Notes under the pieces: model-generated
What the model saw: only the letters and a program-made list of their open reading frames with translations
Told to the model about the DNA's origin: nothing
The model's database searches: none
From: a virus
Direction: 5' to 3' (one strand)
IMG/VR virus record: IMGVR_UViG_3300028859_000009
Span: 62,001-126,000 of that record
Length of the DNA: 64,000 bases
In this document: piece by piece, positions 2,851 through 61,338 of the stretch
Numbering within the stretch: the first letter of the stretch is position 1
How the letters are laid out: every line of letters begins with the position of its first letter
Translations under genes and position numbers: made by a program

Positions 2851-2903
2851 CGATATATTATTCTATAAAAAGTTAATATATAAATAAAAATTTAAATAAA
2901 AAT

Positions 2904-27546: not shown

Positions 27547-27551
27547 ATGGT

Positions 27552-37163: not shown

Positions 37164-37168
37164 TTTAA

Positions 37169-37435
37169 TTATTTTATTATTTCAAATTTTATTATTTCAA
37201 ATTCATTTATATTAATATCATCTGTTGATGGTCTATCATAGAACATACTAAATTGAGCATGTACTGAATCACTATAAGCCAATTTAGCTTCTTCTTCAGT
37301 TTCTACAAACCATATAGGAGAATATTTATTAGTTGTAAATAAATATTCAGTACCAAATTCACTATCATCACTATAAATAACATTAAATCTTATAATTTTA
37401 TTAGTTTCTTTGTGTATAAATGTCCAAACTTCCAT
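37169..37435 (-). CDS. small conserved phage protein (cargo in split locus)
   Basis: The 88-residue product (MEVWTFIHKETNKIIRFNV ... YLFTTNKYSPIWFVETEEEAKLA) resembles a small protein I recall from other large phages. It overlaps the upstream gene by 35 bases and ends five bases before the intein C-fragment. It has no link to polymerase or intein motifs and so is cargo within the interrupted gene. Confidence 0.6.
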   Translation of the reverse strand: MEVWTFIHKETNKIIRFNVIYSDDSEFGTEYLFTTNKYSPIWFVETEEEAKLAYSDSVHAQFSMFYDRPSTDDININEFEIIKFEIIK

Positions 37436-39217: not shown

Positions 39218-39256
39218 ATGGCAATACTTTTATCTCTATATATAAATATTAAAATA

Positions 39257-40147
39257 TCATATTTTTCTAACTGAAAGTATTTTATCTGTTTTCAATATTT
39301 CTGATGGTTTAACTTCTATTTTTTTATTATCTCTAAAAACTATCATAGAATGATCATTAGTTACTATAATTTCCTCACCAGATTTAGTTTTTAATTTCCA
39401 TTTAGGTTTAGAAACTTTATGCCTAATAATTCTCTTAACTGGCGCATAATAAAGTTTTTTATCTTCATTCCAATTTAAAATAAGTTCTTTGCAATTAACT
39501 GACACATGTCCATTTAATGTTACACCAGCAGATCCATATTGAATATTTTTATTATATAAATCTTCTATTGTAAAATATCCATCATTAGTATTTATAATGG
39601 TCTTACAAAAAACGGAATCAGTATCACCATAAATTGTTATTGGAACATCTTTTGGTATAGGTTTTACATTTGAACAATCACAAACAAATCTACTATATAA
39701 TACATTATATCCATTTAATTCTTTTTTATCTTCAACTAAATCACCACGATAATAATTTAATTTTTCTAACATATTATCTACTGATGTATATGTATAATGT
39801 ATATTTTCACCATTTCTATCTAATAAATAAAATTTACCTTCTTTTTCTGCAATATATTCAAGTCCGAGTAATTGATGTGTTTTTGTGTCTAAATGCCATT
39901 CTTTATAAAAATATGTTTCAATCTTTTTAAGCATATAATTTATAACATCACGTCCTTGAGCAGTTATTGCATTTGCAATATGAGAATTTGATAATACAAA
40001 TTTTGGATGTGCAAATGCACCATAAGTTCCATTAATTACAAGTTTTAATGCAAGTTGCATAGCTTTTGCTCTATCGTATTCAGCCTTAGTTTCATCAATT
40101 TTTCTTTTTACTTCTGAAATTTTATCTCTCTTTTCTTGTGCTGTCAT
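39257..40147 (-). CDS. 43: DNA polymerase B middle fragment plus split intein N-fragment
   Basis: Residues 1-177 carry polymerase motif B (LALKLVINGTYGAFAHPKF) and the first part of motif C (IYGDTD, ending at Asp177). The intein N-fragment starts at Ser178: SVFCKTIINTNDGYFTIEDL, a class of Ser1 inteins known at this motif C insertion point, followed by block B (VTNDHSMIV). The fragment has 119 intein residues. Upstream polymerase parts (exonuclease and motif A) are missing from this gene and from the window, so the ATG at 40147 starts within the fingers domain. Confidence 0.92.
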   Translation of the reverse strand: MTAQEKRDKISEVKRKIDETKAEYDRAKAMQLALKLVINGTYGAFAHPKFVLSNSHIANAITAQGRDVINYMLKKIETYFYKEWHLDTKTHQLLGLEYIAEKEGKFYLLDRNGENIHYTYTSVDNMLEKLNYYRGDLVEDKKELNGYNVLYSRFVCDCSNVKPIPKDVPITIYGDTDSVFCKTIINTNDGYFTIEDLYNKNIQYGSAGVTLNGHVSVNCKELILNWNEDKKLYYAPVKRIIRHKVSKPKWKLKTKSGEEIIVTNDHSMIVFRDNKKIEVKPSEILKTDKILSVRKI

Positions 40148-43166: not shown

Positions 43167-43676
43167 TTATAAATTAAATTTTGTTACTGAATCATCAAAT
43201 TCTTTTTTCTTCAAATAATCTTTATATTGTTCTGGATATTTAGATATTATTCTATTGATATCGTACGTATTTAAAAAACCTAATGTTTCATGTCCTTGTT
43301 TATTTTTACAATATAGTGATGCTCCAGCTTCTAATAATATTCTCATTGATGCTAGGTCACTATTTATAGCAGCTCTCATTATTGGAGTATCACCGTTATC
43401 ATTTTTAGCTTCAATATCAGCACCAACCTCTATAAGTTTATAAATTAAATCAAATGAACATATGGTAGCAGCATATGTCAAAGGAGTCTGTCCATTTTTA
43501 GCTTTAATATTTGGATATGCTCCCTCATCTAATAAATTTATCATTTTTATTGATGATTCTTTGCTTCTATTATCAATAATATTTTCATCAATAATTTTGA
43601 TCAATTCGTTAGTAGCTTCAATCTTTATAATAAAGTCATCTGAATAATCTTCAAATTTTTTAAAATTAGTTATCAT
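43167..43676 (-). CDS. ankyrin-repeat protein with signature termini
   Basis: The N-terminus MITNFKKFEDYSDD and the end DDSVTKFNL are the cassette signatures. Residues about 60-150 form ankyrin repeats: GAYPNIKAKNGQTPLTYAA, EVGADIEAKNDNGDTPIMRAA and EAGASLYCKNKQGHETLGF. Ankyrin repeats bind proteins, so it may target a host protein. If the N-terminus is a packaging signal, it would be injected with DNA. Confidence 0.78.
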   Translation of the reverse strand: MITNFKKFEDYSDDFIIKIEATNELIKIIDENIIDNRSKESSIKMINLLDEGAYPNIKAKNGQTPLTYAATICSFDLIYKLIEVGADIEAKNDNGDTPIMRAAINSDLASMRILLEAGASLYCKNKQGHETLGFLNTYDINRIISKYPEQYKDYLKKKEFDDSVTKFNL

Positions 43677-43990
43677 AAATTAAATTTATTTGATTGTATT
43701 ATATATTCTAATTCATCTTTATTTTTTGATATATATTTTATTTCATCTAATGACATATTTCTTTCATTGTGTGAGAAATATTTTTCTAAATTTTTTGGTA
43801 TTTCTTCATAATGTATCACATATGGCTGCATGAATTCTGTGTCATATCTAATATATTCACCTATATTATTTGATGTAAAAGTAATAATTTCAGAATCCGA
43901 ATATGACTCTGATTCATTACACACTACCAAATCTCCAATTTCTGGCTCATCTTTACAAATTTCTTCAAATAATTTAAAATTAGTTATCAT
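43673..43990 (-). CDS. cassette protein, GDxVxC family, copy A
   Basis: MITNFKLFEEICKDEPEIGDLVVCNES at the start and ELEYIIQSNKFNL at the end. The sequence is a clear paralogue of the gene at 44350-44664. It overlaps the ankyrin gene with an ATGA junction. The GDLVVC ... FTSNNIGEYIRYD core suggests a small beta-barrel; function is unknown. Confidence 0.65.
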   Translation of the reverse strand: MITNFKLFEEICKDEPEIGDLVVCNESESYSDSEIITFTSNNIGEYIRYDTEFMQPYVIHYEEIPKNLEKYFSHNERNMSLDEIKYISKNKDELEYIIQSNKFNL

Positions 43991-44014
43991 AAATTAAATT
44001 TTTTTATATTATTA

Positions 44015-44353
44015 TTAAAATTCAATTTCATCATAATAATCTTGAATTTCTTCTGGTGTGCATACTAATTTACCCATAAATATATTATTATCATAGCTTT
44101 CTGATGTTGGGTACGGATACCATGTATAAGAATTTTCATACTCTGGATGTTTTACTATTGTAATTGTTTCTAAATCTGTGAAATTATCTCTAGCTGTAAA
44201 AACTTTATTCTTACGAAGTCTAATCCAATCTTTAATTATAATCTCTGGCATTCCAATTTTTTTCAGAGATATATAAAAATCTGGCATTTTTACAGGCATA
44301 TTCCAAAGTAATTTTTTATCAGAATCTTCAAATTTTTTAAAATTAGTTATCAT
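44015..44353 (-). CDS. cassette protein (112 aa)
   Basis: It starts MITNFKKFEDSDKK and ends YYDEIEF, so only the N-terminal signature is present. The body has NKVFTARDNFTDLETITIVKHPEYENSYTWYPYP. It overlaps the next cassette by four bases. No family is recognised. Confidence 0.6.
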   Translation of the reverse strand: MITNFKKFEDSDKKLLWNMPVKMPDFYISLKKIGMPEIIIKDWIRLRKNKVFTARDNFTDLETITIVKHPEYENSYTWYPYPTSESYDNNIFMGKLVCTPEEIQDYYDEIEF

Positions 44354-44664
44354 AAATTAAATTTATTTGATTGTATTATATATTCTAATTCATCTTTATT
44401 TTTAGACCAATATTTTATTTCATCAATTGACATATTTCTTTCATCATCACCTGAAAAATAACTTTTCATATTTTTTGGTGTATAATCATATTTTATTATA
44501 TAAGGATAAGCCTCTCCGTCATCATATCTAATAAATTTACCGATATTAGTTGATGTAAATATAGTATTAATATCAGCATAGTCTACTTCTTCACATATAA
44601 CAAAATCTCCAATTTCTATTGATTTTTCGTTTATTGATTCAAATTTTTTAAAATTAGTTATCAT
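44350..44664 (-). CDS. cassette protein, GDxVxC family, copy B
   Basis: It starts MITNFKKFESINEKSIEIGDFVICEE and ends ELEYIIQSNKFNL. It matches copy A at 43673-43990 over nearly its whole length, with the last 50 bases almost identical, evidence of recent duplication or recombination. An ATATATAA box lies upstream; this is the first gene of the cassette operon. Confidence 0.65.
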   Translation of the reverse strand: MITNFKKFESINEKSIEIGDFVICEEVDYADINTIFTSTNIGKFIRYDDGEAYPYIIKYDYTPKNMKSYFSGDDERNMSIDEIKYWSKNKDELEYIIQSNKFNL

Positions 44665-44715
44665 ATTATTATATATAAAATATTTTTTAGAAAATAAATA
44701 TTAATATATATAATT

Positions 44716-45441
44716 ATGGAAAATTCTAATTTAACAAAGCAAGCAAAATCTGATATATTTTCTGAATTATATCCAATTATAAATTTTTATATAAATAAAG
44801 GTGCAACTCCGCAGTCATTAAAAAAATATTATAGAAATTCTAAAATGTTTAATGATATTTTAGATGATATAAAAAATAAAGGTTCTAATCTTATAACAGA
44901 TGATATTGAATATAAAAATTTAGTAAAAACTGTATTAAATGATATTTTAGATGATTTAATAGCAAAGCAAAAAGATGATGAATATAAAAACAAACAAATG
45001 AAGCACTTAAAGGAATTTAATTCATATGAATATAAAAATGAATCATTTGGATTGATTACATTATTCGCAATTGGTTTCTTTTTATATAAATTTTTAAAAA
45101 GTATACTTACTAATTATATGAGAAATAGAAATACAAAATTATTATTAACAATACTAAGTAAACTAAATAAATTAAAAGAAAAAGATAAAATACAAGTTAT
45201 TGATCTTTCTAATGTATATTATATAAGATTAAATTTTGATAATGATGAAGGTGGTATTAAAATGTCTAATTTTGATATTGAAGAAAGTGGCATCAAAATA
45301 TCAAAATTTAATGTTAATGAATGTGATATTAGAGTATTAAAAAATGAAAAAACTTTAGAAATATCAGAAGGTACAAATAAAATAAAAATAAATTTGACTA
45401 ATAATGAATATAATGAATTCTTAAAATTAATACAAAAATAA
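44716..45441 (+). CDS. membrane protein with internal signature motif, possible fusion
   Basis: The 241-residue frame has at residue 95 an internal ATG (44998) opening MKHLKEFNSYEYKNES, a copy of the N-terminal signature, followed by one membrane helix (LITLFAIGFFLYKFLKSIL). The frame may be a fusion of a 94-residue protein with a signature-bearing membrane protein, or have an alternative internal start. The plus-strand gene has an ATATATAA box and is the first of six. Confidence 0.6.
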   Translation: MENSNLTKQAKSDIFSELYPIINFYINKGATPQSLKKYYRNSKMFNDILDDIKNKGSNLITDDIEYKNLVKTVLNDILDDLIAKQKDDEYKNKQMKHLKEFNSYEYKNESFGLITLFAIGFFLYKFLKSILTNYMRNRNTKLLLTILSKLNKLKEKDKIQVIDLSNVYYIRLNFDNDEGGIKMSNFDIEESGIKISKFNVNECDIRVLKNEKTLEISEGTNKIKINLTNNEYNEFLKLIQK

Positions 45442-45455
45442 ATAAACAATATAAA

Positions 45456-45992
45456 ATGATAAATGAAATAAACAATATTAAAAAATTCACAGAATGGTTT
45501 CCGTTATATGAATTTCAAATACCTAATGTAAAATTAGATGAGTTCTTCTATAACATAAAATTATCAACTTCTAAATACACTAAAATTCTTGTTGATTATT
45601 TTAAAACATATGAACAATATATTGATTTAATGGATAAAAAGAAGCATCAATATAAGATTAATGATATGTCAGGCGATATTTTAGGTACTGAAAAAGTAGT
45701 TTTCAAATGTAGCATTTTTGATAAAGAAGATATTGAAAATATCAGAGAAAATTTAGTAACTTTTGCATTATCAGAATTTTATTCAGATATTCCTGATTCA
45801 TTAAATGTTTTTGGTATAATGATGAAACCTTTATCGTTTATTGATAAAGAAAAAGTTAAATATTCATTTCAGCAAACTATAACTTTTGATACAACAATAA
45901 ATGTTATATCAACATTAGGTAATATGGTATATGATAATGAATTTAATGGATATTATATTTGGACTGATAAAAAAGATAAATTAACTGAATGA
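45456..45992 (+). CDS. hypothetical protein (178 aa)
   Basis: The product begins MINEINNIKKFTEWFPLYE, partly like the signature motif, and is otherwise soluble and unrecognised. Its end overlaps the next gene by four bases. Confidence 0.55.
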   Translation: MINEINNIKKFTEWFPLYEFQIPNVKLDEFFYNIKLSTSKYTKILVDYFKTYEQYIDLMDKKKHQYKINDMSGDILGTEKVVFKCSIFDKEDIENIRENLVTFALSEFYSDIPDSLNVFGIMMKPLSFIDKEKVKYSFQQTITFDTTINVISTLGNMVYDNEFNGYYIWTDKKDKLTE

Positions 45993-46528
45993 TAATTAAA
46001 AGATTTTTTCAATTAAATGAAAATAATAGCGTTGATAATGATATAAAAAAGGTATTATCAAATAAAGATGATTTATATGCAAAAATTCTAAATTATATGA
46101 AATCACATTTAGATTATTATGATTTTGAAATTGAACTTGATCATCTTGGTGATGTTTGGAATCCTAATTTTTTAAGTGGTGGAGAATTAAATATTGAAAT
46201 TTTCGATAAAAATGAATCTAATGGTGATAATTATGAATTTAATGGTGAGGAATACCAAGCATTACTAGACGAAACAAATTTAACTAAGTCAGAAGTAACA
46301 AATATAATTAATGATTACAATGATTTATTATCATCTTTGACTGATTACTTAAAACAAATCAAAGTATTAAAAACAAATGAATATGCTGATTTTGCATATT
46401 TTGAAGATGATAATACACTTAATATATTGTATCTTGATGAAAAAGAAAGGGGAGATTATTATATTTTATCAAATAACGAATATAATGATTTCTTATTATA
46501 TATAGAATCAAAAAAATTTAATATTTAA
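45989..46528 (+). CDS. cassette protein with signature termini
   Basis: Begins MIIKRFFQLNENNSVDN (L-N-E site) and ends YIESKKFNI. The middle is acidic (ELDHLGDVWNPNFLSGGELNIEIFDKNE) and near its end has YYILSNNEYNDFLLYIE, resembling the end of the preceding membrane protein (LTNNEYNEFLKLIQK). No function is assigned. Confidence 0.6.
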   Translation: MIIKRFFQLNENNSVDNDIKKVLSNKDDLYAKILNYMKSHLDYYDFEIELDHLGDVWNPNFLSGGELNIEIFDKNESNGDNYEFNGEEYQALLDETNLTKSEVTNIINDYNDLLSSLTDYLKQIKVLKTNEYADFAYFEDDNTLNILYLDEKERGDYYILSNNEYNDFLLYIESKKFNI

Positions 46529-46530
46529 TT

Positions 46531-46785
46531 ATGATTGAAAAAGATATGCAAATCAAAGAGTTATACGATTTAAAACATATAAATGATAAAATAGAAACTG
46601 GATTTGATTATGAAGAAGAATTAATGACAAAATCATTATCAAATTTAATGTTTCAAAATGAAACTACTAGCTCATTTTTAGATAAGTTAAAAAAACTATT
46701 AATATATACTATAGAATCTAACTTAATTATACGAAATTTCTTTAATCCGACAATTTCAAAATATTACAATAAACATAATAATTAA
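46531..46785 (+). CDS. small hypothetical protein (84 aa)
   Basis: The product is helical and charged at its N-terminus with a more hydrophobic segment (LLIYTIESNLIIRNFF). It starts three bases after the preceding stop and so is part of the same operon. No family is recognised. Confidence 0.5.
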   Translation: MIEKDMQIKELYDLKHINDKIETGFDYEEELMTKSLSNLMFQNETTSSFLDKLKKLLIYTIESNLIIRNFFNPTISKYYNKHNN

Positions 46786-46790
46786 ATAAT

Positions 46791-47066
46791 ATGAAAATTA
46801 AAAAATTTGAAAAATACGAGCATAACATTGAACCAATAATATATGATCCAGAATATAAATTGATGAAAATTGATGAAAATGGAGACTCAAATGAAATTGA
46901 TATCAATGTAAATCCATTTGATTTAGATGAGATTGTTAGTTGTTATTTAGATATGAAAGGATATGATAATAATTTGTGGATAAAAAAAATAACAGAAGAA
47001 ATAGTAGACTTAAATATGATACCTGAAATAAAAATTCATCTATCTGCTAAAAAATTCAATATATAA
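46791..47066 (+). CDS. cassette protein with signature termini (91 aa)
   Basis: It begins MKIKKFEKYEHN and ends LSAKKFNI, so both signatures are present around a short acidic body. It is the last of the plus-strand cassette genes before the HAD-like gene. Function is unknown. Confidence 0.6.
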   Translation: MKIKKFEKYEHNIEPIIYDPEYKLMKIDENGDSNEIDINVNPFDLDEIVSCYLDMKGYDNNLWIKKITEEIVDLNMIPEIKIHLSAKKFNI

Positions 47067-48235: not shown

Positions 48236-48265
48236 CAAAGATATAAAAAAATCTGAACTACACAA
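48236..48265 (-). promoter_or_regulatory. Bacteroidota-type promoter
   Basis: On the minus strand TTG (48263-48265) and TATCTTTG (48236-48243) are 19 bp apart, upstream of the 46-residue gene. It is embedded within the terminator hairpin of the preceding operon. Confidence 0.72.
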
Positions 48266-48282
48266 GTAATTCAGATTTTTTT
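48245..48282 (-). terminator. terminator of the IF-3/PepF operon
   Basis: AAAAAAATCTGAA and TTCAGATTTTTTT form a 13-bp stem just downstream of the 82-residue gene, overlapping a promoter for the next gene. Confidence 0.8.
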
Positions 48283-48284
48283 TG

Positions 48285-48533
48285 TTAAATGTTATGTTCT
48301 ATCTCTAATAATTTATTTTTTCTATATTCTATAATTCCAATAAACCAATTTTTATATGATAGTCCATTAACATCTTGATATATTGTGAAAGAAATCTGTC
48401 TACCATTATCATCTTTTATAATTATACGTTCACTATATGAACTATCTACAATAGAATATATTTTTCCTACTGTTACTGATGAAATACCATAATCATTATC
48501 ATGACAATATAATTTATCTCCAATTTTTATCAT
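48285..48533 (-). CDS. small beta-barrel-like protein (82 aa)
   Basis: The product (IKIGDKLYCHDNDYG ... VTVGKIYSIVDSS ... IIIKDDNGRQISF) has a KOW/SH3-like repeat pattern and ends YRKNKLLEIEHNI, a variant of the C-terminal tag. It overlaps pepF by four bases and closes the operon. Function is unknown. Confidence 0.62.
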   Translation of the reverse strand: MIKIGDKLYCHDNDYGISSVTVGKIYSIVDSSYSERIIIKDDNGRQISFTIYQDVNGLSYKNWFIGIIEYRKNKLLEIEHNI

Positions 48534-50329
48534 TTCAATAAAGATTTTAGTTCTTCCAAATATTCCGAGAATTGTTTAAATGCATCCTTATAACATTCTC
48601 CATCGGTCAAATCTATACCAGCCTTTTTCAACAAATCTACAGGATAATCACTACTACCAGATTTCAATAGTTCCATATATTTTTCTAATTGTTCTTTATC
48701 TCCATTCAAAATTCTTGTTGAAAGAATAACTGCAGAAATAAAACTTGTTGAATATTGGAATACATAAAAATCATAATAGAAATGTGGAATACGTGACCAT
48801 TCATTTGCATACAATTTATCAATTTTAATAATATTTTTATCTTCACCATGATACTTTTTAAGTAATTCATAATATTTATCATTCATCAATGATGCTGTTA
48901 AAACTTCATCATTTTCTACTGATTCATACATAAATTTTTCAAATTCAGCAAACATAGTTTGTCTGAATACAGTTGTTCTAAAATGTTCAATATAATTATT
49001 CAACAAGAAAATTTTCAATTGTTTATCATCTGTTGTAGTCAACATATGATTAAGTAACAAAAGTTCATTTGTTGTTGATGCAATTTCAGCAATAAATGTT
49101 GAATAACTTGATTTATTATAAGGTTGATTAGCATTACTTAATATAGAATGTCCAGCATGTCCTGCTTCATGAAGAAGAGTTGAAACATCATCATATTTAT
49201 CTTTATAATTCAATAAAATATAAGGATGAACATCGTACACAGATCCATTCATATATGCACCAGTATCTTTAAATTGATTTGGATATACATCTATCCAACT
49301 TTCACTGATTGCTCTTTTCATAATATTAGTATATTCATTTCCAAGAATTGAGGTTGATTCTATAAGTAATTTTTTAGCGTTATCATATGAATATTTGTAA
49401 TCTACATCATTCACAATGGGGTTATATAAATCATAATAATTCAATTCATCATAATTTAATATATCTTTTCTAAAATTAAGATAATCAAACATTTTATCAA
49501 GATTATTGGATACATTTTCAATTAAACCATCATAAATAGATATAGGAATATTTTCTGATGATAAAGAATTATCTAAAGATGATTTATAATTTCTAATTTT
49601 ACTTTCTGTTGCAGAACTCTTAATGAATTTGAACATCAATTTAGATAATGTGTTCTTATATTCATCAAATGTTTTATAAAAAGTATCATAAACTAATTTA
49701 CGATCATCTCTATTGCTAGATTCAATTAATACTCTATAATTTCTATCATCAACTAATACTTCTTCTCCATTTGATAGTGTAATAGTTGAATATTTCAATT
49801 CAGTATTTTTAAAAATTGTATATACATCATTTGATGTTGAAAAAACATCAGAAATATTAGTTAAAAGTTCTTCTTCTATTTTAGATAAAATATGACTTTT
49901 ATTTTTTAATGTATCTTTAATATCAAAATGATAGACTTCTAAATCTTCACAAGATAATATATTTGAAATTATATCATCATTAAAATGAATAATTTCGTCT
50001 GTAATAAATTCGCATTTTGAACTAAATTTAACAGCAGCATCTTTTACTTTCTGAACCAATTTATCAGCATCTTCATTATTTTGTTCTTGATCTAAATACA
50101 TATTAGCATAACAAAAAAGCTTTGTTATCATTTTACTTGTCTTAGTTGACAAATCCAAACATTTCTTCAATTCTTTAGTATCTGTTAATTTACCATTAAA
50201 TAATACAATTTTTTTAGTATAATCTAAAATTTTATCACAATCTATATCAAATTCATCTTTATCTTTATAAATTTGTGTTAAATCCCATTTAAATTCATCC
50301 GAAATTTCATTTCTTAATTTTGTTTCCAT
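48530..50329 (-). CDS. pepF: oligoendopeptidase F (M3 family zinc peptidase)
   Basis: The 599-residue protein has the full M3B layout: an N-terminal helical region beginning EISDEFKWDLTQIYKDKDEF and the zinc motif LLHEAGHAGHS near residue 386 (HExxH), with downstream EIASTTNE supplying the third ligand. Length matches bacterial PepF (about 600). These cytoplasmic enzymes cut 7-17 residue peptides. It belongs to an operon with IF-3 and a hypothetical gene behind one strong promoter. A full-length intact PepF in a phage is unusual; it may recycle host peptides or remove signal or defence peptides. Confidence 0.93.
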   Translation of the reverse strand: METKLRNEISDEFKWDLTQIYKDKDEFDIDCDKILDYTKKIVLFNGKLTDTKELKKCLDLSTKTSKMITKLFCYANMYLDQEQNNEDADKLVQKVKDAAVKFSSKCEFITDEIIHFNDDIISNILSCEDLEVYHFDIKDTLKNKSHILSKIEEELLTNISDVFSTSNDVYTIFKNTELKYSTITLSNGEEVLVDDRNYRVLIESSNRDDRKLVYDTFYKTFDEYKNTLSKLMFKFIKSSATESKIRNYKSSLDNSLSSENIPISIYDGLIENVSNNLDKMFDYLNFRKDILNYDELNYYDLYNPIVNDVDYKYSYDNAKKLLIESTSILGNEYTNIMKRAISESWIDVYPNQFKDTGAYMNGSVYDVHPYILLNYKDKYDDVSTLLHEAGHAGHSILSNANQPYNKSSYSTFIAEIASTTNELLLLNHMLTTTDDKQLKIFLLNNYIEHFRTTVFRQTMFAEFEKFMYESVENDEVLTASLMNDKYYELLKKYHGEDKNIIKIDKLYANEWSRIPHFYYDFYVFQYSTSFISAVILSTRILNGDKEQLEKYMELLKSGSSDYPVDLLKKAGIDLTDGECYKDAFKQFSEYLEELKSLLK

Positions 50330-50332
50330 TTT

Positions 50333-51052
50333 TTATTTTATAATTGTTTGTATTTTAGCTGTTTGTATTTGATTTTGTAACCATTTATTTACTATATTCC
50401 GATATTTTATATTTTCTTTGAGTAATTCGATATCTTTTTTTGCTTCTTCGATTGCATCAGAATATTTGTTTTTATTAGTATTATATAAAAGCATAAGATC
50501 ATCATATAAGTCTATTTGTTGATGATCAGTATTATCTTTTTCAAATTTTAATGATTGATTAAGACATGATTCTATAGTATCATTATAAGTATACCATTTT
50601 TTTGATTTTATCCAATTTTTTGTATTATCATCTAATTGATTTGGTATTAATTCAATTTCTTGCATATTCGTTAAATCTATTAATTTTTTATTATTATCTT
50701 TTAACCATTTAGCATATTTTTCCATACTATTGACATTTTTTAAAACATCAGATATTTTAAGTCCAATTCCTAAATCATCAATTCCTAAATAGATTCTCAT
50801 AAATGTTAATGCTCCAGGATGTTCTGTTTCATTATCTTTCATAACGTTATAACAACCAGCAGGAACAACCCATTCATCAGATGGTAAACTTGAATAATGT
50901 GTAATAAAAATTTCTGCTTTACCTTCTTCAATTAATTCCTCAACTAAATTGGCATATTCTATTGATGTATGTCTAATAATTGATAATGATAAACCCTGTT
51001 CACTTTTTTTGGTTATTTTAATAATTGAATTGAGCATTTCTATCTTTTCCAT
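50333..51052 (-). CDS. hypothetical protein between infC and pepF
   Basis: The 239-residue protein has a helical N-terminus (SIIKITKKSEQGLSLSIIRHTSIEYANLVEELIEEGKAEIF), which looks like a winged-helix arrangement, and a coiled-coil C-terminus (DAIEEAKKDIELLKENI). No family is recognised. Close spacing (seven and three bases) places it in one operon with IF-3 and PepF. Confidence 0.6.
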   Translation of the reverse strand: MEKIEMLNSIIKITKKSEQGLSLSIIRHTSIEYANLVEELIEEGKAEIFITHYSSLPSDEWVVPAGCYNVMKDNETEHPGALTFMRIYLGIDDLGIGLKISDVLKNVNSMEKYAKWLKDNNKKLIDLTNMQEIELIPNQLDDNTKNWIKSKKWYTYNDTIESCLNQSLKFEKDNTDHQQIDLYDDLMLLYNTNKNKYSDAIEEAKKDIELLKENIKYRNIVNKWLQNQIQTAKIQTIIK

Positions 51053-51059
51053 AAATAAT

Positions 51060-51596
51060 TTATTTGTTTTTATTTGGTTTTATTGGTTTTATTATCATTT
51101 GCATTCTTTTACCTTCTAATTTTGGCATAGATTCTGCTGCTCCAACTCCATCTAATGCATCGACAAACTTCAATAGTTTGACTTTACCTTGATCTTGATA
51201 TATAATTTCTCTTCCTTTAAAAAATACTGATAATAATACTTTATCTCCACCCAATAAAAAAGTTTTAGCATTTTTTAATTTAAAATTAAAATCATGTTCA
51301 TCAATATTTGGAGTCATTCTAATTTCTTTAATATCAATTTGATTTTGTTTTTGAACTTTTTTTTGCTCTTTATCTTTTTTCTTTTTATCATAAAGAAATT
51401 TATCATAATCTACAATCTTGCATATAGAAATATTATTATTAGATGAAATTTCAACTAAGTCTAATTCCATTTCATCCGCAAGTCTAATGGCTTTTCTAGT
51501 GTCTAATACGCAATTTTCGACATTATCTCCTACTAATCTAACACTTTGACTAGTAATAAACCTATTTATTTTGTTTTGAGCTTCTTGTTTCTTCAT
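51060..51596 (-). CDS. infC: translation initiation factor IF-3
   Basis: The 178-residue protein has both IF-3 domains: the N-terminal VRLVGDNVENCVLDTRKAIRLADEMELDLVEISSN, the linker KIVDYDKFLYDKKKKDKEQKK, and the C-terminal IKEIRMTPNIDEHDFNFKLKNAKTFLLGGDKVLLSVFFKGRE ... PKLEGKRMQMIIKP. IF-3 binds the 30S subunit, prevents premature 50S joining and checks initiator tRNA and start codon. A phage copy could bias initiation toward phage mRNAs, which mostly lack Shine-Dalgarno sites. It is first in its operon, with a good promoter upstream. Confidence 0.95.
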   Translation of the reverse strand: MKKQEAQNKINRFITSQSVRLVGDNVENCVLDTRKAIRLADEMELDLVEISSNNNISICKIVDYDKFLYDKKKKDKEQKKVQKQNQIDIKEIRMTPNIDEHDFNFKLKNAKTFLLGGDKVLLSVFFKGREIIYQDQGKVKLLKFVDALDGVGAAESMPKLEGKRMQMIIKPIKPNKNK

Positions 51597-51616
51597 TTAT
51601 AATTTATTTATAGGTA

Positions 51617-51648
51617 CAAATATAATACAATTATTTGTATAAACCAAA
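51617..51648 (-). promoter_or_regulatory. Bacteroidota-type promoter of the IF-3 operon
   Basis: On the minus strand TTTG (51645-51648) and TATATTTG (51617-51624) are separated by 20 bp, about 20 bases before the infC ATG. Confidence 0.72.
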
Positions 51649-53439: not shown

Positions 53440-53688
53440 ATGCTTAAAATCGGTGAAAAATATCTTAGTAAAGATGTGGTTAGTGTACTATTCAGTTTAC
53501 AAAATAAAAACGAATATCATAAAATAATTGATATTGAAAATGATATAATATACATAGATATTAACAGTAATACTATAATGATGTCAACAAATAATACTAT
53601 ATTCAGTAACTATTCATATTTCTTTGATTATTATTACACTAAGCAAGAAGAACGCAAATTAAAACTTCTACGATTAATTAAATTTTAA
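53440..53688 (+). CDS. small protein with C-terminal basic tag
   Basis: The 82-residue product (KIGEKYLSKDVVSVLFSL ... NEYHKIIDIENDIIYIDI) ends in EERKLKLLRLIKF, a variant of the recurrent C-terminal peptide. It has a candidate -7 box TATTTTTG at 53388-53395, though without a well-spaced -33. Function is unknown. Confidence 0.55.
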   Translation: MLKIGEKYLSKDVVSVLFSLQNKNEYHKIIDIENDIIYIDINSNTIMMSTNNTIFSNYSYFFDYYYTKQEERKLKLLRLIKF

Positions 53689-53698
53689 TATATTTACA

Positions 53699-54376
53699 TT
53701 AAAAATATTTATGAAATATATTAAAATTTAATTTATTCTTCTCTATAACATTAATCATATAATAAAGTTGGTTGTTTTCTTTTGTATTAAATAATACATC
53801 ATTATCTTCTGTATATTCTATTAATTTCCAAGCATCTAAAATCAATTCTTCTCTTACTTCTTCGTATAGATGATAATTAGAAAAATTATCTTTTGGCCCT
53901 AAAAAACGAAGTTCACTTCTTCTAAAATTTTGAATATCTCCATGTCCACAACAAGGCCTCATTATATCCAATACATCAGAATCATAAACAATATTATGAT
54001 TAATATCATTAGTTAAATTTTTACTAATTAATGATGAAATATATTTACATTTATTTTCATCATAATTAGAATTTTTTATAAGATAATTTAAACATATATT
54101 TGAGCTATCATTTTCCCACAAATCTATACCACTTCCTTGTCTACCACTATCATGAAATGATACTGCATATCTAATTGAGTTGAAATCCACATCTATACTC
54201 AATTCTTTTGTATAGAATCTCGACATAAATTCAGAAAAAATAATAGATCTTGATATATGACGTCTACCATGAATTCCATAATCATCAAATGTATTTTCGT
54301 GATTTTTATAAATGTTTAATATTGATTTAGAGAATTCATCTAAAAAATCATTCCATTTTTGTATATCTGTATTCAT
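53699..54376 (-). CDS. HD-domain phosphohydrolase
   Basis: The 225-residue product has HGRRH (36-40), FHDSG (HD at 75-76) and YDSDVLDIM (Asp near 130), the H...HD...D metal ligands of HD hydrolases. These act on nucleotides or cyclic nucleotides. It overlaps the primase gene by one base, which links it to replication or nucleotide metabolism. Confidence 0.75.
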   Translation of the reverse strand: MNTDIQKWNDFLDEFSKSILNIYKNHENTFDDYGIHGRRHISRSIIFSEFMSRFYTKELSIDVDFNSIRYAVSFHDSGRQGSGIDLWENDSSNICLNYLIKNSNYDENKCKYISSLISKNLTNDINHNIVYDSDVLDIMRPCCGHGDIQNFRRSELRFLGPKDNFSNYHLYEEVREELILDAWKLIEYTEDNDVLFNTKENNQLYYMINVIEKNKLNFNIFHKYF

Positions 54377-55593
54377 TATTTTTTATATTTATTTTTATCA
54401 TATGGTTTTTTACCAAAATATTCTGGTTTAGGATATAATGTTTCATCCAAATATAATTTATCAAAAATATCATTTGAAAAATACTTTTGTAAATTTATTT
54501 TTTTAAATTTATTCATATCCTTTATTTCTTGTACTAATTTATTTAAATCTTTAATTTTAATAAAATATTTTTTTGCTACAAATTTATCTTTTTTATTTTT
54601 TAATAAATCTTCTATCAATTTTTGCCACAAAAAAACCTTATATCCTTTATCTAAGAGAGTTTGAGATTTTCTGATACCAACGTTATCTTGATCTAAAAAG
54701 AATTGAATATCCAAGTCAGAATCAAATAAAAAAGATAAGTCAGTATCAATTGAGTTTAATCCAATAGCTCCAATCGAATTGGTTCTAGAATTTCCATAAT
54801 TCATAAATAATGAATCAAGCATACCTTCAAATATTGTCACTGGTTGATTCCAGTCAACATTTAATATATTAAAAAAATTTGAAAGCTTATTATAAGATAG
54901 CATTTCTAATTCATCCAAAACTTCATCTGGATGTAAAATTGAGTAAATTTTTTCGAAATTAAAAATTTTAAAAAATCTTTTATCCCCAGGTTTCATATTA
55001 CGAATTTGCATTCCTAATAATTTCTTACCTGATTTATTCAACATTACAATGCATTTCTCAGTCCATTTATCTGTTAATTTATAATCACACTCATATATAT
55101 TTTCGAAATTTTCTATCAATCTTTCAAATTTCAAATATTGATAAGCAGCAGAGTTTAATTGAATTGGTTTAAATTTTGAAATTTGATGTTCTGAATGCTC
55201 ATTTATATAATTAGAAAACTCATCTATATCAATTAATTTATTTAAATGTTCAGGTATATAAACATCCTTCTTACTATCAAATTTCATATTAGAATCAGCA
55301 AAATCATATAATGCTTGTTTTTCTTCTAACCCAATTTCAACATTAAATTCTTTAAATAATTTTGTAACACTAGATCTACAATCTTCATTAAAACAAACCA
55401 TATATGTAGGATTATCCTTATATATATTTGCTCTTTTTGCATTAGGATCTTTACGAGAATCACCACAAATTGGACATGCAAAATTTAATCTATCATTATA
55501 ATCTTTAATTATAAATTTACGGGGATCAGAATGCGCATTTTTAAGCACTTCTATCATCTTACTTTTTATATATTCAATATCTATTTTTGCCAT
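54376..55593 (-). CDS. DNA primase, DnaG type
   Basis: The 405-residue protein has an N-terminal zinc-binding domain with Cys40, Cys43, Cys67 and Cys72 (CPICGDSRKDP ... CFNEDC), a linker, and a Toprim domain with VTIFEGMLDSLFM and FFLDQDNVGI. This is the layout of T4 gp61-like primases, which make RNA primers with the replicative helicase. The helicase is not in this window. Coupled to the HD hydrolase. Confidence 0.88.
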   Translation of the reverse strand: MAKIDIEYIKSKMIEVLKNAHSDPRKFIIKDYNDRLNFACPICGDSRKDPNAKRANIYKDNPTYMVCFNEDCRSSVTKLFKEFNVEIGLEEKQALYDFADSNMKFDSKKDVYIPEHLNKLIDIDEFSNYINEHSEHQISKFKPIQLNSAAYQYLKFERLIENFENIYECDYKLTDKWTEKCIVMLNKSGKKLLGMQIRNMKPGDKRFFKIFNFEKIYSILHPDEVLDELEMLSYNKLSNFFNILNVDWNQPVTIFEGMLDSLFMNYGNSRTNSIGAIGLNSIDTDLSFLFDSDLDIQFFLDQDNVGIRKSQTLLDKGYKVFLWQKLIEDLLKNKKDKFVAKKYFIKIKDLNKLVQEIKDMNKFKKINLQKYFSNDIFDKLYLDETLYPKPEYFGKKPYDKNKYKK

Positions 55594-55641
55594 AACTCAT
55601 GATAGAAAAAATGATTAATAAAGTTTAATCTATAAACATAA

Positions 55642-55669
55642 AAAATCAGGCTCATAACAACCTGATTTT
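55642..55669. terminator. terminator
   Basis: AAAATCAGG and CCTGATTTT form a stem with an 11-base loop downstream of the gene at 55767-56150. Confidence 0.65.
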
Positions 55670-55766
55670 CAATTACTATTATAAAAAGATGCAAGATCAT
55701 GATATATATACTATATATAATATATAATTTACTTCATAATTGAATGATAATCAACAATATACTATA

Positions 55767-56150
55767 TTAAAAAGATTCTAATATTTCTATTAAATCCTTT
55801 AATTTTATATATTCAATACCGTAATCGTCATAATTCCCGTAATATTCCCATTCATGTTTAGTTGTTGATTCTAATGATTCTTCTATTTTTTTAAATTGAA
55901 GATATGTTATTTCTGGTTTTAATATTTCTAAAACCATATCAAGTGCTTTGAATTTTGGTTTATCTTCTCCATCATATTCTTCTGACTCATCATCATTCCA
56001 ACAATTACCGCCTGATGATCCGCCTTCTGACCAACGCATATACACAATTAATTCTTTAATACCATCACAGCCATATGGTTCATTGAAAACTCCCTGATCT
56101 GATGGGCATTTATTATTTATTTTATTTATTTGTTCATTAGTTAATTTCAT
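55767..56150 (-). CDS. hypothetical protein (127 aa)
   Basis: The ATG at 56150 (MKLTNEQINKINNKCPSDQ) is chosen over a TTG six bases upstream. The centre reads ELIVYMRWSEGGSSGGNCWNDDESEEYDGEDKPKF. The protein is acidic with a Gly/Ser-rich patch. No family is recognised. Confidence 0.6.
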   Translation of the reverse strand: MKLTNEQINKINNKCPSDQGVFNEPYGCDGIKELIVYMRWSEGGSSGGNCWNDDESEEYDGEDKPKFKALDMVLEILKPEITYLQFKKIEESLESTTKHEWEYYGNYDDYGIEYIKLKDLIEILESF

Positions 56151-56222
56151 ATTCAATATTTAAAAATTATAATTGCAAATGTAATAAATTATTTTCAAAT
56201 AAAAAATATTATTTCAAATTAT

Positions 56223-56253
56223 TTTGTTATTATCAAAATTAGTTGTATATTTG
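56223..56253 (+). promoter_or_regulatory. Bacteroidota-type promoter
   Basis: TTTG at 56223-56226 and TATATTTG at 56246-56253 are separated by 19 bp. It drives the plus-strand gene run that starts at 56282. Confidence 0.78.
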
Positions 56254-56281
56254 CAAACTATAAATTTTAAAAAATAAAAAT

Positions 56282-56620
56282 ATGGAAAATTATTTAGGTA
56301 AAATATTAGATGCGTCAATAGTATCATCAGGTAGAAAAGTAAAAAACGGTACATATATTACTTTTGAAACACATGTTAATATCACAATTGGTCAATATGT
56401 AGATATTGTATTTGATAATAAAATACATCATTTTGAAGTAAAAGATATTTCAATTAAAGATGTAAAATTAGTAGTAGATGCTTGTGAGATAGGATATTAC
56501 GCAACAAAATTTGATAACGATAAAAACTTTGATTTGAGAAAATTGATTGATGTTGATATTGTACTTATTACTGATAATGATAAAATTAAAAAAATTAAAG
56601 AAGAATCTTGTTGGTGCTAA
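56282..56620 (+). CDS. hypothetical protein (112 aa)
   Basis: The product (MENYLGKILDASIVSSGRKVKNGTYITFETHVNITIGQYVDIVFDNKIHHF) is beta-rich and starts the NAD-related operon. No family is recognised. Its expression should be early, given the host-type promoter. Confidence 0.6.
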   Translation: MENYLGKILDASIVSSGRKVKNGTYITFETHVNITIGQYVDIVFDNKIHHFEVKDISIKDVKLVVDACEIGYYATKFDNDKNFDLRKLIDVDIVLITDNDKIKKIKEESCWC

Positions 56621-56630
56621 ATTAAATATT

Positions 56631-56798
56631 ATGATAAAAAATATATTGTTAAATAAAAAAGATTTTGAAAAACTAACTAAAGGTGAAGTGATCGAAAAAG
56701 ATGGTATTAAAATAGCTATTCAAGATATTGGATATCAAACTATGATTAATATCTTAGATGAGAATTATTATTTAAATGATCGAAAAAAATATTTTTAA
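56631..56798 (+). CDS. small hypothetical protein (55 aa)
   Basis: The ATG at 56631 (MIKNILLNKKDFEKLTKGEVIE) is preferred because it begins after the upstream stop. The next ATG immediately follows its stop. The small beta-rich product has no recognised family. Confidence 0.5.
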   Translation: MIKNILLNKKDFEKLTKGEVIEKDGIKIAIQDIGYQTMINILDENYYLNDRKKYF

Positions 56799-57149
56799 AT
56801 GAAATTAGAAAAATATCTTGAATATCGTAAAATTTTTGAAAATAATTATAAAGAACAAATAAAAGTTGGAAAACATGATTTAGAATTTGTAAATTTATAT
56901 GATTTGAAAAATGATATTTCAAGATTTAAAAAATTTATATTTATTTATAGTTATGATAATAATTCTTTATTTACTAATACAGTATCTTCAATAGATACTA
57001 GAAAAAGATTTATAATTAAAAATAACAAACCAGCAATAAAAATCAAAATAGATGTTACAAATGTGCATTTAATTGATGAATGGTCTGAGAGATTTGAAAA
57101 AGTATTAGAATTTTATAATAAAAATATTAATAATAAAAAATATGAATAA
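56799..57149 (+). CDS. hypothetical protein (116 aa)
   Basis: It begins MKLEKYLEYRKIFENNYKEQ, a longer variant of the signature motif with an F-E site, and ends in NKNINNKKYE. It overlaps pncA by eight bases. No function is assigned. Confidence 0.55.
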   Translation: MKLEKYLEYRKIFENNYKEQIKVGKHDLEFVNLYDLKNDISRFKKFIFIYSYDNNSLFTNTVSSIDTRKRFIIKNNKPAIKIKIDVTNVHLIDEWSERFEKVLEFYNKNINNKKYE

Positions 57150-57813
57150 AAAAATAACAATATTTAAAAATTTAACAGCAAGTCATAATGTAGATCCTCA
57201 AAATGGATTTACTCCATTATGTCCAGATGAATTACCTGTTGAAGATGGAGATAAAATCGTGATTGAATTGAATAAACAAAATAATTTAACTAAATATAAA
57301 ACAGTATCAAAAGATATGCATCCTGTTAATTCAATTTGGATTGCAAATGATGAACATCCTCAATTTTCACCAATAGAAGGAGAAAATGTTGATATTTCTT
57401 GGAAATCTCATTGTATATCTGGAACTTTTGGTTCTGAACTTATATCAGGACTTCCTAAAATGAGTGATTATGACTTCTTTGTAGCAAAAGGATTTGAACC
57501 AGATTTACATCCTTATTCAAGTTGCTATCATGACTTAAATAAAAAAATATCTACAGGACTTATTGAATGGTATATATCTAAACATATTGATACAGTTATA
57601 ATTGGAGGGTTAGCATTAAATTTTGAAGATGATCCTCTTTGTGTTGGCACAACAATTATTGATTTAGTTAATGCTGGATTTGATGTTATTTTAAATATGG
57701 GCGCGACCAGAGGATTAGGATCAATAGAAGGTAGAAAAAAATTTATTAATATGCTAATTGACGAATATCATGTAGTAGTTGTAAATTCTGCTGATGAAAT
57801 TAAAGTTATTTAA
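57142..57813 (+). CDS. pncA: nicotinamidase (PncA family)
   Basis: All key residues of the family are present: Asp18 (VDPQNGF), Lys116 (FFVAKGFEP) and Cys167 (DPLCVGTT) as catalytic triad, and Asp58-x-His60 plus His90 (WKSHCISGT) as metal ligands. It is 223 residues, a normal length. It converts nicotinamide to nicotinate, the substrate for PncB at 60136-61338 in the same run. The product can restore NAD after NAD-consuming host defences release nicotinamide. Confidence 0.88.
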   Translation: MNKKITIFKNLTASHNVDPQNGFTPLCPDELPVEDGDKIVIELNKQNNLTKYKTVSKDMHPVNSIWIANDEHPQFSPIEGENVDISWKSHCISGTFGSELISGLPKMSDYDFFVAKGFEPDLHPYSSCYHDLNKKISTGLIEWYISKHIDTVIIGGLALNFEDDPLCVGTTIIDLVNAGFDVILNMGATRGLGSIEGRKKFINMLIDEYHVVVVNSADEIKVI

Positions 57814-57822
57814 TTTAATATT

Positions 57823-58161
57823 ATGTTTTATACTGGTGATATTATAATATTTAGAAATACTGATAAAAAATATAATTTTTTTAATATTAATATTAAAAAT
57901 AAACAGAATTCTGTTTATTTTCTTTATTCTTTTGATAATAATTTTAATGTATTTGATAGTTATAAACTAAATGATGGAGATATATTTAAAATTATATGTG
58001 ATAATTATACATTTCGTCAGTATCTAATACCAATATATCCATTTGATATTCCAAAAACATATAATTATGAAGTATATAATCGAACCTATAATATGTTTAC
58101 TAAATTGAGTATATCTGAATATAGAAACCTAAAACTTAAAAAACTAAACAATTTACAATGA
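57823..58161 (+). CDS. small protein with C-terminal tag, repeat 1
   Basis: The 112-residue product is Asn/Tyr/Phe-rich and ends ISEYRNLKLKKLNNLQ. Its last 50 bases are nearly identical to those of the next gene, so it is one of three tandem copies that share a C-terminal tag. Function is unknown. Confidence 0.6.
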   Translation: MFYTGDIIIFRNTDKKYNFFNINIKNKQNSVYFLYSFDNNFNVFDSYKLNDGDIFKIICDNYTFRQYLIPIYPFDIPKTYNYEVYNRTYNMFTKLSISEYRNLKLKKLNNLQ

Positions 58162-58394
58162 TAGCAAAGATAGCAAAAGCTGGAGATAAAGTTGTTTATA
58201 CTGGTGAACTTTATCATCATGTAGATGACTTATTAACTAAAAATTCAATTTATATTGTAAAAGATATATCCTTAGTACGTAAAAAATTCGGATACATATT
58301 ATTTGGTTTTGATATTTCATTTAATTTTGATGAATTTGAAAAATTATCTGAATATAGAAAACTAAAACTTAAAAAACTAAACAATTTACAATGA
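58158..58394 (+). CDS. small protein with C-terminal tag, repeat 2
   Basis: It begins MIAKIAKAGDKVVYTGELYHH, a GDKVxY start shared with the next gene, and ends LSEYRKLKLKKLNNLQ. It overlaps both neighbours by four bases. A small beta-barrel is likely. Confidence 0.62.
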   Translation: MIAKIAKAGDKVVYTGELYHHVDDLLTKNSIYIVKDISLVRKKFGYILFGFDISFNFDEFEKLSEYRKLKLKKLNNLQ

Positions 58395-58621
58395 TAGCTA
58401 AAGCAGGTGATAAAGTCATATATATCGGTGAATATTATAATAAATATAATATTTTATTATTAAATGGTTCAACTTATACTATAAGACATATAACTCAAAT
58501 ATTAGATCATTATCTATATGAATTAGATGAATTTAATAGAATAAATTGTTTTATATCTAATAAATTTGAAACAATATCTGAATATAGAAAAAGAAAACTT
58601 GAAAAAATAAATAATTTATAA
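58391..58621 (+). CDS. small protein with C-terminal tag, repeat 3
   Basis: It begins MIAKAGDKVIYIGEYYNKY and ends ISEYRKRKLEKINNL, and is a clear paralogue of the preceding gene, so the two arose by tandem duplication. Overlap with the next gene is one base. Confidence 0.62.
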   Translation: MIAKAGDKVIYIGEYYNKYNILLLNGSTYTIRHITQILDHYLYELDEFNRINCFISNKFETISEYRKRKLEKINNL

Positions 58622-58953
58622 TGATAGCATATAAATTAATGAAACAAAGAAAAAATGGTACTCTTGGTAGTTTATTTATAAATGCTAAAAAAGTATATTC
58701 TTTAAATAAATGGATGAATGCTGAGTTTATACCAACAAATGGATTTGCTGAAAGATTTGGCTGGCATTGTTGTTTCACTCCAAATGCACCACATTTGAAA
58801 GAAAATTTATCAAGTGGTGAAGTAAGAGTATGGGTCGAAGTTGAAGTTGAAGGAATAAAAACATATGATAGACCAGAATCTCAGGGAGGTTCTTGGATTC
58901 TTGCTGATAAAATGAAAATTAATAGTATCATTGATAAAAATGAATATAGATAA
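58621..58953 (+). CDS. conserved phage protein (AYKLMKQRKNGTLG family)
   Basis: The 110-residue product opens MIAYKLMKQRKNGTLGSLF and contains GFAERFGWHCCFTPNAPHLKE, VRVWVEVEVEG and YDRPESQGGSWILADKMKI. I recall this domain in many phages and plasmids; no function is known to me. It is soluble and of normal length. Confidence 0.7.
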   Translation: MIAYKLMKQRKNGTLGSLFINAKKVYSLNKWMNAEFIPTNGFAERFGWHCCFTPNAPHLKENLSSGEVRVWVEVEVEGIKTYDRPESQGGSWILADKMKINSIIDKNEYR

Positions 58954-59197
58954 ATCTTTAGGATATTGGAATTTAGGAAATTGTAGTTATTTAGATGAAC
59001 TTGCATATCATCTTTTTCTTAAAGATTATGATAATTGGTTTCATTCTGTAGGTTTTGAAGAACCAATAACACAATACGTATTTTGTATGCAACATTCATA
59101 TGAAAAACACACAGGACATATCGCACAATATTACAATAAAGCAGTATTAGTAATAAGAAAAGAAAAACTTGAAGAAATAAATGGAATCAAAAAATAA
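58940..59197 (+). CDS. hypothetical protein with C-terminal tag (85 aa)
   Basis: The ATG at 58940 is chosen over a TTG at 58931. The product (MNIDKSLGYWNLGNCSYLDELAYHLF) ends VIRKEKLEEINGIKK, a tag variant. It overlaps the next gene by 17 bases. Confidence 0.58.
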   Translation: MNIDKSLGYWNLGNCSYLDELAYHLFLKDYDNWFHSVGFEEPITQYVFCMQHSYEKHTGHIAQYYNKAVLVIRKEKLEEINGIKK

Positions 59198-59507
59198 ATA
59201 TTATAAGAATTCTTTAACTGGACATATTATTTGCGAACAAACATTTATATCAGATATTATTACTAATATTCCAACTAAATATTATGATTTACATATGCGT
59301 GAAATTGGTGAGAATTTTGATTTACGTGGATATGTAGAAATCAAACAGAAAAAATTTGATTTATATAGAAGTAGTAGATGGAATGCAGGTGAAATAAATA
59401 GTTGGTTTATAAAACCTAAAATAGAAAAAACTTTAATTGAAATAAGAAAAGAAAAATTAGAAGAACTAAATAAAATAAAAAATAAAAAATATGATTGGAA
59501 TGTATAA
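59181..59507 (+). CDS. hypothetical protein with C-terminal tag (108 aa)
   Basis: The product ends EIRKEKLEELNKIKNKKYDWNV, again carrying the basic tag. It overlaps its neighbours at both ends. The middle is beta-rich (GENFDLRGYVEIKQKKFDLY). No family is recognised. Confidence 0.58.
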   Translation: MESKNKYYKNSLTGHIICEQTFISDIITNIPTKYYDLHMREIGENFDLRGYVEIKQKKFDLYRSSRWNAGEINSWFIKPKIEKTLIEIRKEKLEELNKIKNKKYDWNV

Positions 59508-60135: not shown

Positions 60136-61338
60136 ATGAAACAAATTATCAAAAGTATCTTAGATACTGACTTATACACATTTAGCTTGTGTTATTTATA
60201 TCTTCAAAAATTTCCTCGTGCTATTGGAAAATATAGTTTTATTGATAGAAATTCAACCTGTTATCCAAAAGGATTTGCAGAAAAAGTTAAAAATCAACTT
60301 AAAAAAATGGAAGATGTAAAATTAACTGATGATGAATTCAACTTTATGTTAGATAAGTTTTATTATTTCCCAAAATGGTTTTTTACATTTTTGAAAGGAT
60401 ATAGATTTGATTCATCTGAAGTTTCTATAAGTCAAGATGTAGAAGGTCATTTATCAATTGAAATTGAAGGATCAATTTTTAAAACTATATTTTGGGAGCA
60501 ACCAATATTAGCAATTGTATCTGAACTTGCTCATAAAATGAATGGAGATTTTGATAAATATGATGAAAAAAAAGAATATCAAAAATCATATGACAAATGT
60601 AAAAAAATGATTGATGCTAAAATTTTAGTCTCTGAGTTCGGAACTAGGCGCCGTCTTTCTTTTGCTCATCAGCATCTTGTTATTAAATCATTCATTGATT
60701 GTATGAAAGATAATTGTACTGATTTAGGAGGTATAATAGGCACATCAAATGTATATTTCGGTATGAAATATGGATTAAAAATAAATGGTACAATGTCACA
60801 CCAATATATTAGCTTAATTGCATCAATATATGGACCAGTAGAAGCAAATAATACTGCAATGAATATGTGGGAAGATGTATATCAAGGTTCGTTAGGAACA
60901 TTCTTGTATGATACATTAACTAGAGAAGTATTCATGAAAAACTTTTCATTAAAAAATGCTATTTTATTTCAAGGAGTAAGAGTAGATAGTGGAGATGAAA
61001 TTGAAGCATTAGAAGATTTTATTCTAAAATATAAATCTCTTGGTATTGATCCATCAACAAAAACTATAATTTTTAGTAACGCATTAACTGTAGATAAAGC
61101 AATTGAAATTCATAAAATTGTTGATGGACGTATGAAAGATAGTTATGGTATAGGTACACACTTATCATGTAGTGTGGATAATGTAAAGCCATCTAATATG
61201 GTCATAAAACTTACAGCAGCTAAAATTACAGAATCAAGGGAATGGAATAATTGTGTAAAATTTAGTGACGATAAAGGTAAATATACTGGTGATAAAGAAA
61301 CAATTGAAATTTATAGAAATTTGTTAAATATCAAATAA
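60136..61338 (+). CDS. pncB: nicotinate phosphoribosyltransferase (PncB)
   Basis: The 400-residue product matches PncB in length and motifs: DTDLYTFSLCYLY near the start, FGTRRRLSFAHQ, GTSNVYFGMKYGLKINGTMSHQYI, GVRVDSGDEIEALE and IIFSNALTVDKAIEI. It makes nicotinate mononucleotide from nicotinate and PRPP. Together with the phage PncA, it provides the first two steps of the Preiss-Handler NAD salvage; the adenylyl transfer and amidation would need host NadD and NadE or genes elsewhere. Confidence 0.93.
   Translation: MKQIIKSILDTDLYTFSLCYLYLQKFPRAIGKYSFIDRNSTCYPKGFAEKVKNQLKKMEDVKLTDDEFNFMLDKFYYFPKWFFTFLKGYRFDSSEVSISQDVEGHLSIEIEGSIFKTIFWEQPILAIVSELAHKMNGDFDKYDEKKEYQKSYDKCKKMIDAKILVSEFGTRRRLSFAHQHLVIKSFIDCMKDNCTDLGGIIGTSNVYFGMKYGLKINGTMSHQYISLIASIYGPVEANNTAMNMWEDVYQGSLGTFLYDTLTREVFMKNFSLKNAILFQGVRVDSGDEIEALEDFILKYKSLGIDPSTKTIIFSNALTVDKAIEIHKIVDGRMKDSYGIGTHLSCSVDNVKPSNMVIKLTAAKITESREWNNCVKFSDDKGKYTGDKETIEIYRNLLNIK

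Follow-up and report, generated by a model that had tools for sequence, protein, structure and literature searches.

The IMG/VR virus record IMGVR_UViG_3300028859_000009 has 140,730 bp, and we analyzed a 64-kb stretch of it (record bases 62001-126000, hereafter the window), whose GC content was 18-31% in 2-kb steps. A tightly packed unit of four genes runs along its minus strand from 51596 to 48285. The first is infC, for translation initiation factor IF-3 (51060..51596; 178 amino acids (aa), AUG start), followed by an orphan gene of 239 aa (50333..51052, the 50333 gene), pepF for an M3 oligoendopeptidase F (48530..50329; 599 aa), and a small orphan gene of 82 aa (48285..48533, the 48285 gene). 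The successive spacings are 7 nucleotides (nt), 3 nt, and a 4-nt overlap. An exact match to a Bacteroidota-type promoter, TTTG-N20-TATATTTG, lies on the same strand 20 nt 5' of the infC start (51617..51648). A minus-strand hairpin resembling an intrinsic terminator, with 17 pairs and then a T run, closes the unit (48245..48282); three hairpins of this type were found in the region, compared with 0.2 expected. From this compact arrangement between promoter and terminator we infer that the four genes share one transcript, as an earlier preliminary description of the window had proposed.

That description had also claimed a full-length IF-3 and a full-length M3 peptidase with intact HExxH, and both were confirmed. 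IF-3 passed the NCBI curated equivalog TIGR00168 (163 bits; cut-off 60) and scored above the cut-offs for IF3_N (PF05198, 80.0 bits) and IF3_C (PF00707, 102.4 bits). It was 43% identical (72/167) to the IF-3 chain 8jsg. PepF passed TIGR00181 over residues 6-596 (552 bits; cut-off 490.55), with 2qr4 as its best solved structure relative (E 2.1e-124) and the motif HEAGH at residues 387-391. The zinc-site residues H387, E388, H391, and E415, the last a downstream Glu that we take to be the third zinc ligand, were invariant in eight aligned sequences. Selection was estimated as dN/dS (NG86) between the window and its relatives, and the values are rough because dS was >1 in the two farthest IF-3 pairs: 0.126-0.197 for IF-3 (five comparisons), 0.101-0.178 for PepF (three comparisons), 0.33 and 0.44 for the 50333 gene, and 0.51 and 0.79 for the 48285 gene. 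IF-3 and PepF are thus constrained, and the 48285 orphan is loose.

The preliminary description had named recent host contamination as a finding that would overturn a phage-borne operon. In such a case, contamination or misassembly would have fused infC and pepF of a bacterium to a contig from a phage. Several infC and PepF matches in a public phage collection do look like pieces of bacterial genomes: seven of the 16 IF-3 records opened (of 26) carried ThrS, L35, or L20. Phage-labelled MT837394, MT121966, and CAKLQH020000014, among others, carry a thrS-infC or an infC-L35-L20 block and are probably bacterial contigs. Our results for the window point the other way. Direct searches identified IF-3 at six viral loci and PepF at five, and the same gene block was present in contigs from other metagenomes: the members of the pairs L002/L003 and L004/L005 have identical gene tables and come from different metagenomes. 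L002 and L004 retain all four genes in the same order (infC, orphan, pepF, small orphan), with 86-89% protein identity for IF-3 and PepF; in L002 there are two copies of the small orphan. In L011, the 50333 gene is missing and a different short open reading frame (ORF) takes its place, by eye, and in L006 and L007 infC follows the primase gene and pepF is absent. A wider scan brought the viral IF-3 loci to 48, a few of which are truncated. None of the 48 had L35, L20, or ThrS as neighbors. Among bacterial infC loci, 22 of 23 did; the remaining one is a second, divergent IF-3 copy of Aneurinibacillus tyrosinisolvens (L207).

The phylogeny agrees with the synteny. In a tree of 76 rows, the IF-3 of the window fell in an all-viral clade of 11 rows (support 100/99), nested in a clade of 30 rows (100/98) whose single non-viral member is L026; we take this thrS-infC contig for Bacteroidota. 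L140 groups with L026 and may not be viral, because its surrounding genes look cellular by eye. Support is weak for the deep branches, and some of the viral rows sit on long ones; our claims are therefore limited to these two clades. Synteny, phylogeny, and the lack of chromosomal neighbors in 48/48 viral loci led us to reject contamination, to which we assign a negligible probability. These results show that intact infC and pepF genes, under purifying selection and in a compact unit with promoter and terminator, have been kept in one lineage of large phages with AT-rich DNA.

The two genes differ in distribution. The window's kin comprise six records, four with the operon and two with infC alone. 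An M3 peptidase was present in exactly the four with the operon and in none of 22 others, namely the two with infC alone and 20 further IF-3 phage records, among them six public genomes of 462-735 kb. A profile scan of viral contigs gave nine PepF loci, of which five belong to the window clade; the other four (L181-L184) look bacterial or prophage-edge by eye. Sixteen records of the public phage collection had PepF matches, and all four that were opened sit among cellular-looking genes (by eye). Because pepF is confined to the window's clade among IF-3 phages, we conclude that infC is the older part, and pepF either a gain of the window clade or a loss elsewhere. Like cellular oligoendopeptidase F (M3B; 2qr4; TIGR00181), the phage enzyme is full length, passes the equivalog cut-off, and has an intact HExxH. 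It differs in being phage-borne, in being at most 41% identical to cellular loci among the matches listed (80 loci, mostly Bacillota), and in forming a lone long branch in a quick tree that contained no known Bacteroidota row. In that tree, the phage PepFs joined six Pseudomonadota metagenome-assembled genomes (99 SH-aLRT, no bootstrap) through long branches.

The promoter and the start regions bear on the host. With the Bacteroidota consensus TTTG-N20-TATATTTG, which we take as given, the -33 TTTG and the -7 TAnnTTTG elements were both matched upstream of infC. Window-wide, the exact consensus was barely above chance (eight seen vs 4.4 expected; 7/100 shuffles as high). Upstream motifs were counted over 82 genes: the full promoter occurred within 100 nt of two (0.28 expected), infC being one of them, and the -7 element was enriched, with 14 occurrences against 5.3 expected (s.d. 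2.2). The infC promoter aligned gap-free in L002, L004, and L011, with one change in the first TTTG of L011, and was absent from L006 and L007 in an alignment of relatives. The preliminary description had called this promoter strong and host-type; the exact match bears out the second adjective, and strength cannot be judged from a sequence. The Shine-Dalgarno (SD) motif GGAG/GAGG was found in only 2/82 upstream regions (0.84 expected), and the bases upstream of the phage genes are A-rich. Promoter elements and A-rich, SD-less starts fit a Bacteroidota host. The IF-3s of LR756501 and LR756504 fall in the window's clade, and we matched these records, with LR756500, on the basis of their lengths to genomes of Al-Shayeb et al. 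(2020, PMC7162821), who predicted that all five of their huge-phage genomes >634 kb replicate in Bacteroidetes. Both lines together indicate that the host is probably a member of the Bacteroidota.

The preliminary description had suggested that IF-3 could shift host ribosomes to phage start regions without SD sites. The phage does lack SD motifs, but Bacteroidia ribosomes fail to recognize SD (PMC9976891) and already initiate without it, so that no shift would be needed in a Bacteroidota host. SD avoidance as an explanation for IF-3 is therefore weakened.

The phage factor and its gene were also set against their cellular counterparts. We compared 15 E. coli IF-3 positions that we presume to be functional: R25, Y75, K110, and R133 (E. 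coli numbering) were identical (4/15), five showed R to K, one was Y107F, and five were otherwise different, including R99T. For the start codon, we looked 5-25 codons ahead of the conserved I14 for an in-frame ATG, near-copies being included in the viral rows. It was present at the expected start in 43/55 viral rows, 13/13 window-clade rows, and 9/23 bacterial rows, and many bacterial rows offer only AUU, AUC, or AUA there. In E. coli, the AUU start of infC serves feedback by IF-3 itself.

We give a roughly even chance to the reading that the unit is a true phage operon whose role is to support the synthesis of phage proteins, through IF-3 dosage and intracellular peptide recycling. Phage IF-3 would bind the host 30S subunit, split 70S ribosomes and keep the subunits apart, and proofread start codons. 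It would act by dosage, so that initiation continues during the shutdown of host gene expression; the dosage role is our first choice because an AUG-started phage infC should escape the AUU-type feedback brake. PepF probably stays in the cytoplasm, because its N-terminus has no hydrophobic stretch, and would cleave the short peptides left by protein breakdown, so that their degradation to amino acids could be completed and serve phage synthesis. infC would have come first, and pepF and the 50333 gene would have joined it later in the window clade or been lost in others. Several points weigh against this reading. Recycling requires further peptidases. Most IF-3 phages lack pepF, so IF-3 does not need PepF. 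One third of the presumed functional positions (5/15, R99T included) differ by more than R to K or Y107F. Finally, the AUG start may be inherited and not a phage change, since infC begins with ATG in L026 as well, the contig that we take for bacterial.

Both fates that the preliminary description offered for the PepF products, freed amino acids or cleaved peptide signals, are possible, and the second leads to an alternative in which PepF destroys one particular peptide (for example a signal of the host, an antimicrobial peptide directed at ribosomes, or the peptide of a rival) and has only its promoter in common with IF-3. Cellular PepFs degrade the XIP pheromone in Streptococcus salivarius and the precursor of microcin J25, a lasso peptide, in Bacillus subtilis, as the literature reports, which makes a specific target a reasonable rival. 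We nevertheless consider it unlikely, as no candidate peptide system was identified and PADLOC found nothing in the unit; the lack of a PADLOC match also led us to discard a defence role. A different possibility, likewise unlikely in our judgment if slightly less so, concerns IF-3: a phage factor with altered proofreading or mRNA choice could favor phage mRNAs. Initiation is under IF-3 control, phage and cellular IF-3 differ at the positions presumed to be functional, and selective translation is in print as a proposal for phage bS21 and IF3. The starts of the phage genes, however, are A-rich and SD-less, as those of a Bacteroidota host would be, so that such a factor has no obvious start context peculiar to the phage to act on. 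The bS21 of Bacteroidetes phages (PMC9723584) is comparable in that a component of host initiation is carried by a phage and was proposed to bias translation, and it is a different protein. A bS21 partner for IF-3 was looked for and discarded: the gene was found in 0/6 records of the window's group, which may be fragments, in a search whose positive control matched 6/14 genomes.

Being an anti-association factor, IF-3 could also split 70S/100S ribosomes that are idle or in hibernation where the host grows slowly, and so enable the infection of starved cells. The record also encodes SmpB, and a role of phage IF3 in ribosome rescue or in supporting translation has been suggested in a 2021 review. 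This explanation overlaps with IF-3 dosage and assumes the state of the host, and we regard it as very improbable.

Phage IF-3 itself is already known; what is new is its pairing with PepF in one operon. A 2020 paper (Al-Shayeb et al., PMC7162821) described IF3 in huge phages, and the 2021 review and a 2024 paper mention it; in the portions of these papers relied on here, it is named without an experimental test. The huge phages share with the window a full-length IF-3 of the same clade and, above 634 kb, predicted Bacteroidetes hosts. Their IF-3s are 47-49% identical to that of the window, and LR756500, LR756501, and LR756504 have no M3 peptidase. Agrobacterium phage Atu_ph07 and Sinorhizobium phages Phosso and AP-J-162 are also large and have infC beside a proteolysis gene, clpX; they differ in IF-3 (~40% identity), hosts, and other neighbors, and ClpX takes the place of PepF. 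PHROGs contains an IF-3 family and an unnamed family that matches the window's PepF. Our search of the open-access literature found no paper on a phage PepF/M3 peptidase or on an infC-pepF operon.

Other peptide-degrading genes were found beside infC. In the clade of LR756501, infC has upstream of it a gene of ~369 aa that encodes the inverted motif HLIEH, and the copy of this gene in L023 (3675-4784) passed the M16 profiles PF00675 (43.8 vs 22.3) and PF05193 (43.0 vs 23). This insulinase-type M16 peptidase was present in 7/8 records of that clade, the exception being a 33.8-kb fragment of L147, and in 0/6 records of the window's kin; the 735-kb LR756501 has two M16 genes, one adjoining infC. 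In Atu_ph07 and Phosso, the gene immediately upstream of infC is clpX, a vicinity also remarked in the paper on AP-J-162. The 50333 orphan touches on the same question. The 50333 protein matched no family in Pfam, PHROG, or PADLOC; its fold model was of low confidence (mean pLDDT 63.7) and had no PDB match at E 0.001. Its gene was matched at eight viral loci and has homologues in other large phages, directly after an M42 peptidase gene in L223/L224 and without a preceding M42 peptidase in L025, L221, and L222 (by eye).

These arrangements hint that phages may have paired infC with peptide-degrading genes repeatedly, which we treat as a lead. Large phages carry several proteases, each clade counts only once, and most IF-3 phage loci inspected by eye had no peptide-degrading neighbor. 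It is quite doubtful, in our view, that phages repeatedly joined initiation control to peptide degradation (M3, M16, or ClpX near infC). The enzymes would then remove peptides that stem from the host or block translation, which would make the ribosome takeover pay, and the 50333 family would be an accessory of such peptidases (M3 here, M42 in L223/L224).

The window also encodes phage-type genes: a DNA polymerase, a primase, and an SbcC-like protein. The primase gene (54376..55593, minus strand; phrog_47, E 2.7e-15) lies outside the unit; a primase was near infC in 8/43 de-duplicated viral loci and is usually the upstream neighbor of infC in the nearest phages. The family B polymerase is in two ORFs on the minus strand (36192-40147), with two ORFs between them. 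In ORF 39257-40147, YGDTDSVF is followed by an N-terminal intein part that forms the end of the ORF, and ORF 36192-37163 begins with a C-terminal intein part, so that this looks like a fractured gene with a split intein; the relative L008 has a single polymerase ORF of 453 aa. Besides infC, the translation-linked genes of the record are seven tRNAs in the window and SmpB, which count in favor of an operon that supports phage translation. The SmpB gene scored above the curated cut-off (L017:3551-3994; record bases 128551-128994), and SmpB was present in 4/6 records of the group. A search for its tmRNA partner in G000 gave only short tRNA-like matches, and a full-length match in the relative G003 (2697-3067) was just below the threshold (44.3 vs 47 bits).

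The 48285 gene is one of several small paralogues that share the pattern KxGDxxxC ... LTxGKxYxI and often stand in tandem, at record bases 26646-28132 and at window positions 48285-48533 and 53440-53688. Many otherwise unrelated ORFs start with a similar peptide (MITNFKKFE, MKHLKxFE), at window positions 43167-46791 and 52482 and elsewhere in the record; a crude pattern matched 16/220 ORFs, and similar tags occur in LR745206 (L025). They resemble the capsid-targeting tags of T4. Another N-terminal sequence, MKIR(N/S/T)GFVSNSSSSSF, is shared by at least six ORFs (L015:16968-21383; record bases 54968-59383). A phage DnaK scored above its curated cut-off (L014:11540-13411), and a nicotinate phosphoribosyltransferase gene is at 60136-61338 of the window.

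This small conserved operon ties phage IF-3 to an enzyme of known chemistry, which opens the role of the factor to direct test. If several lineages do pair initiation factors with peptide-degrading enzymes, the takeover of translation by phages would extend beyond the ribosome, to the supply of amino acids or the removal of blocking peptides.

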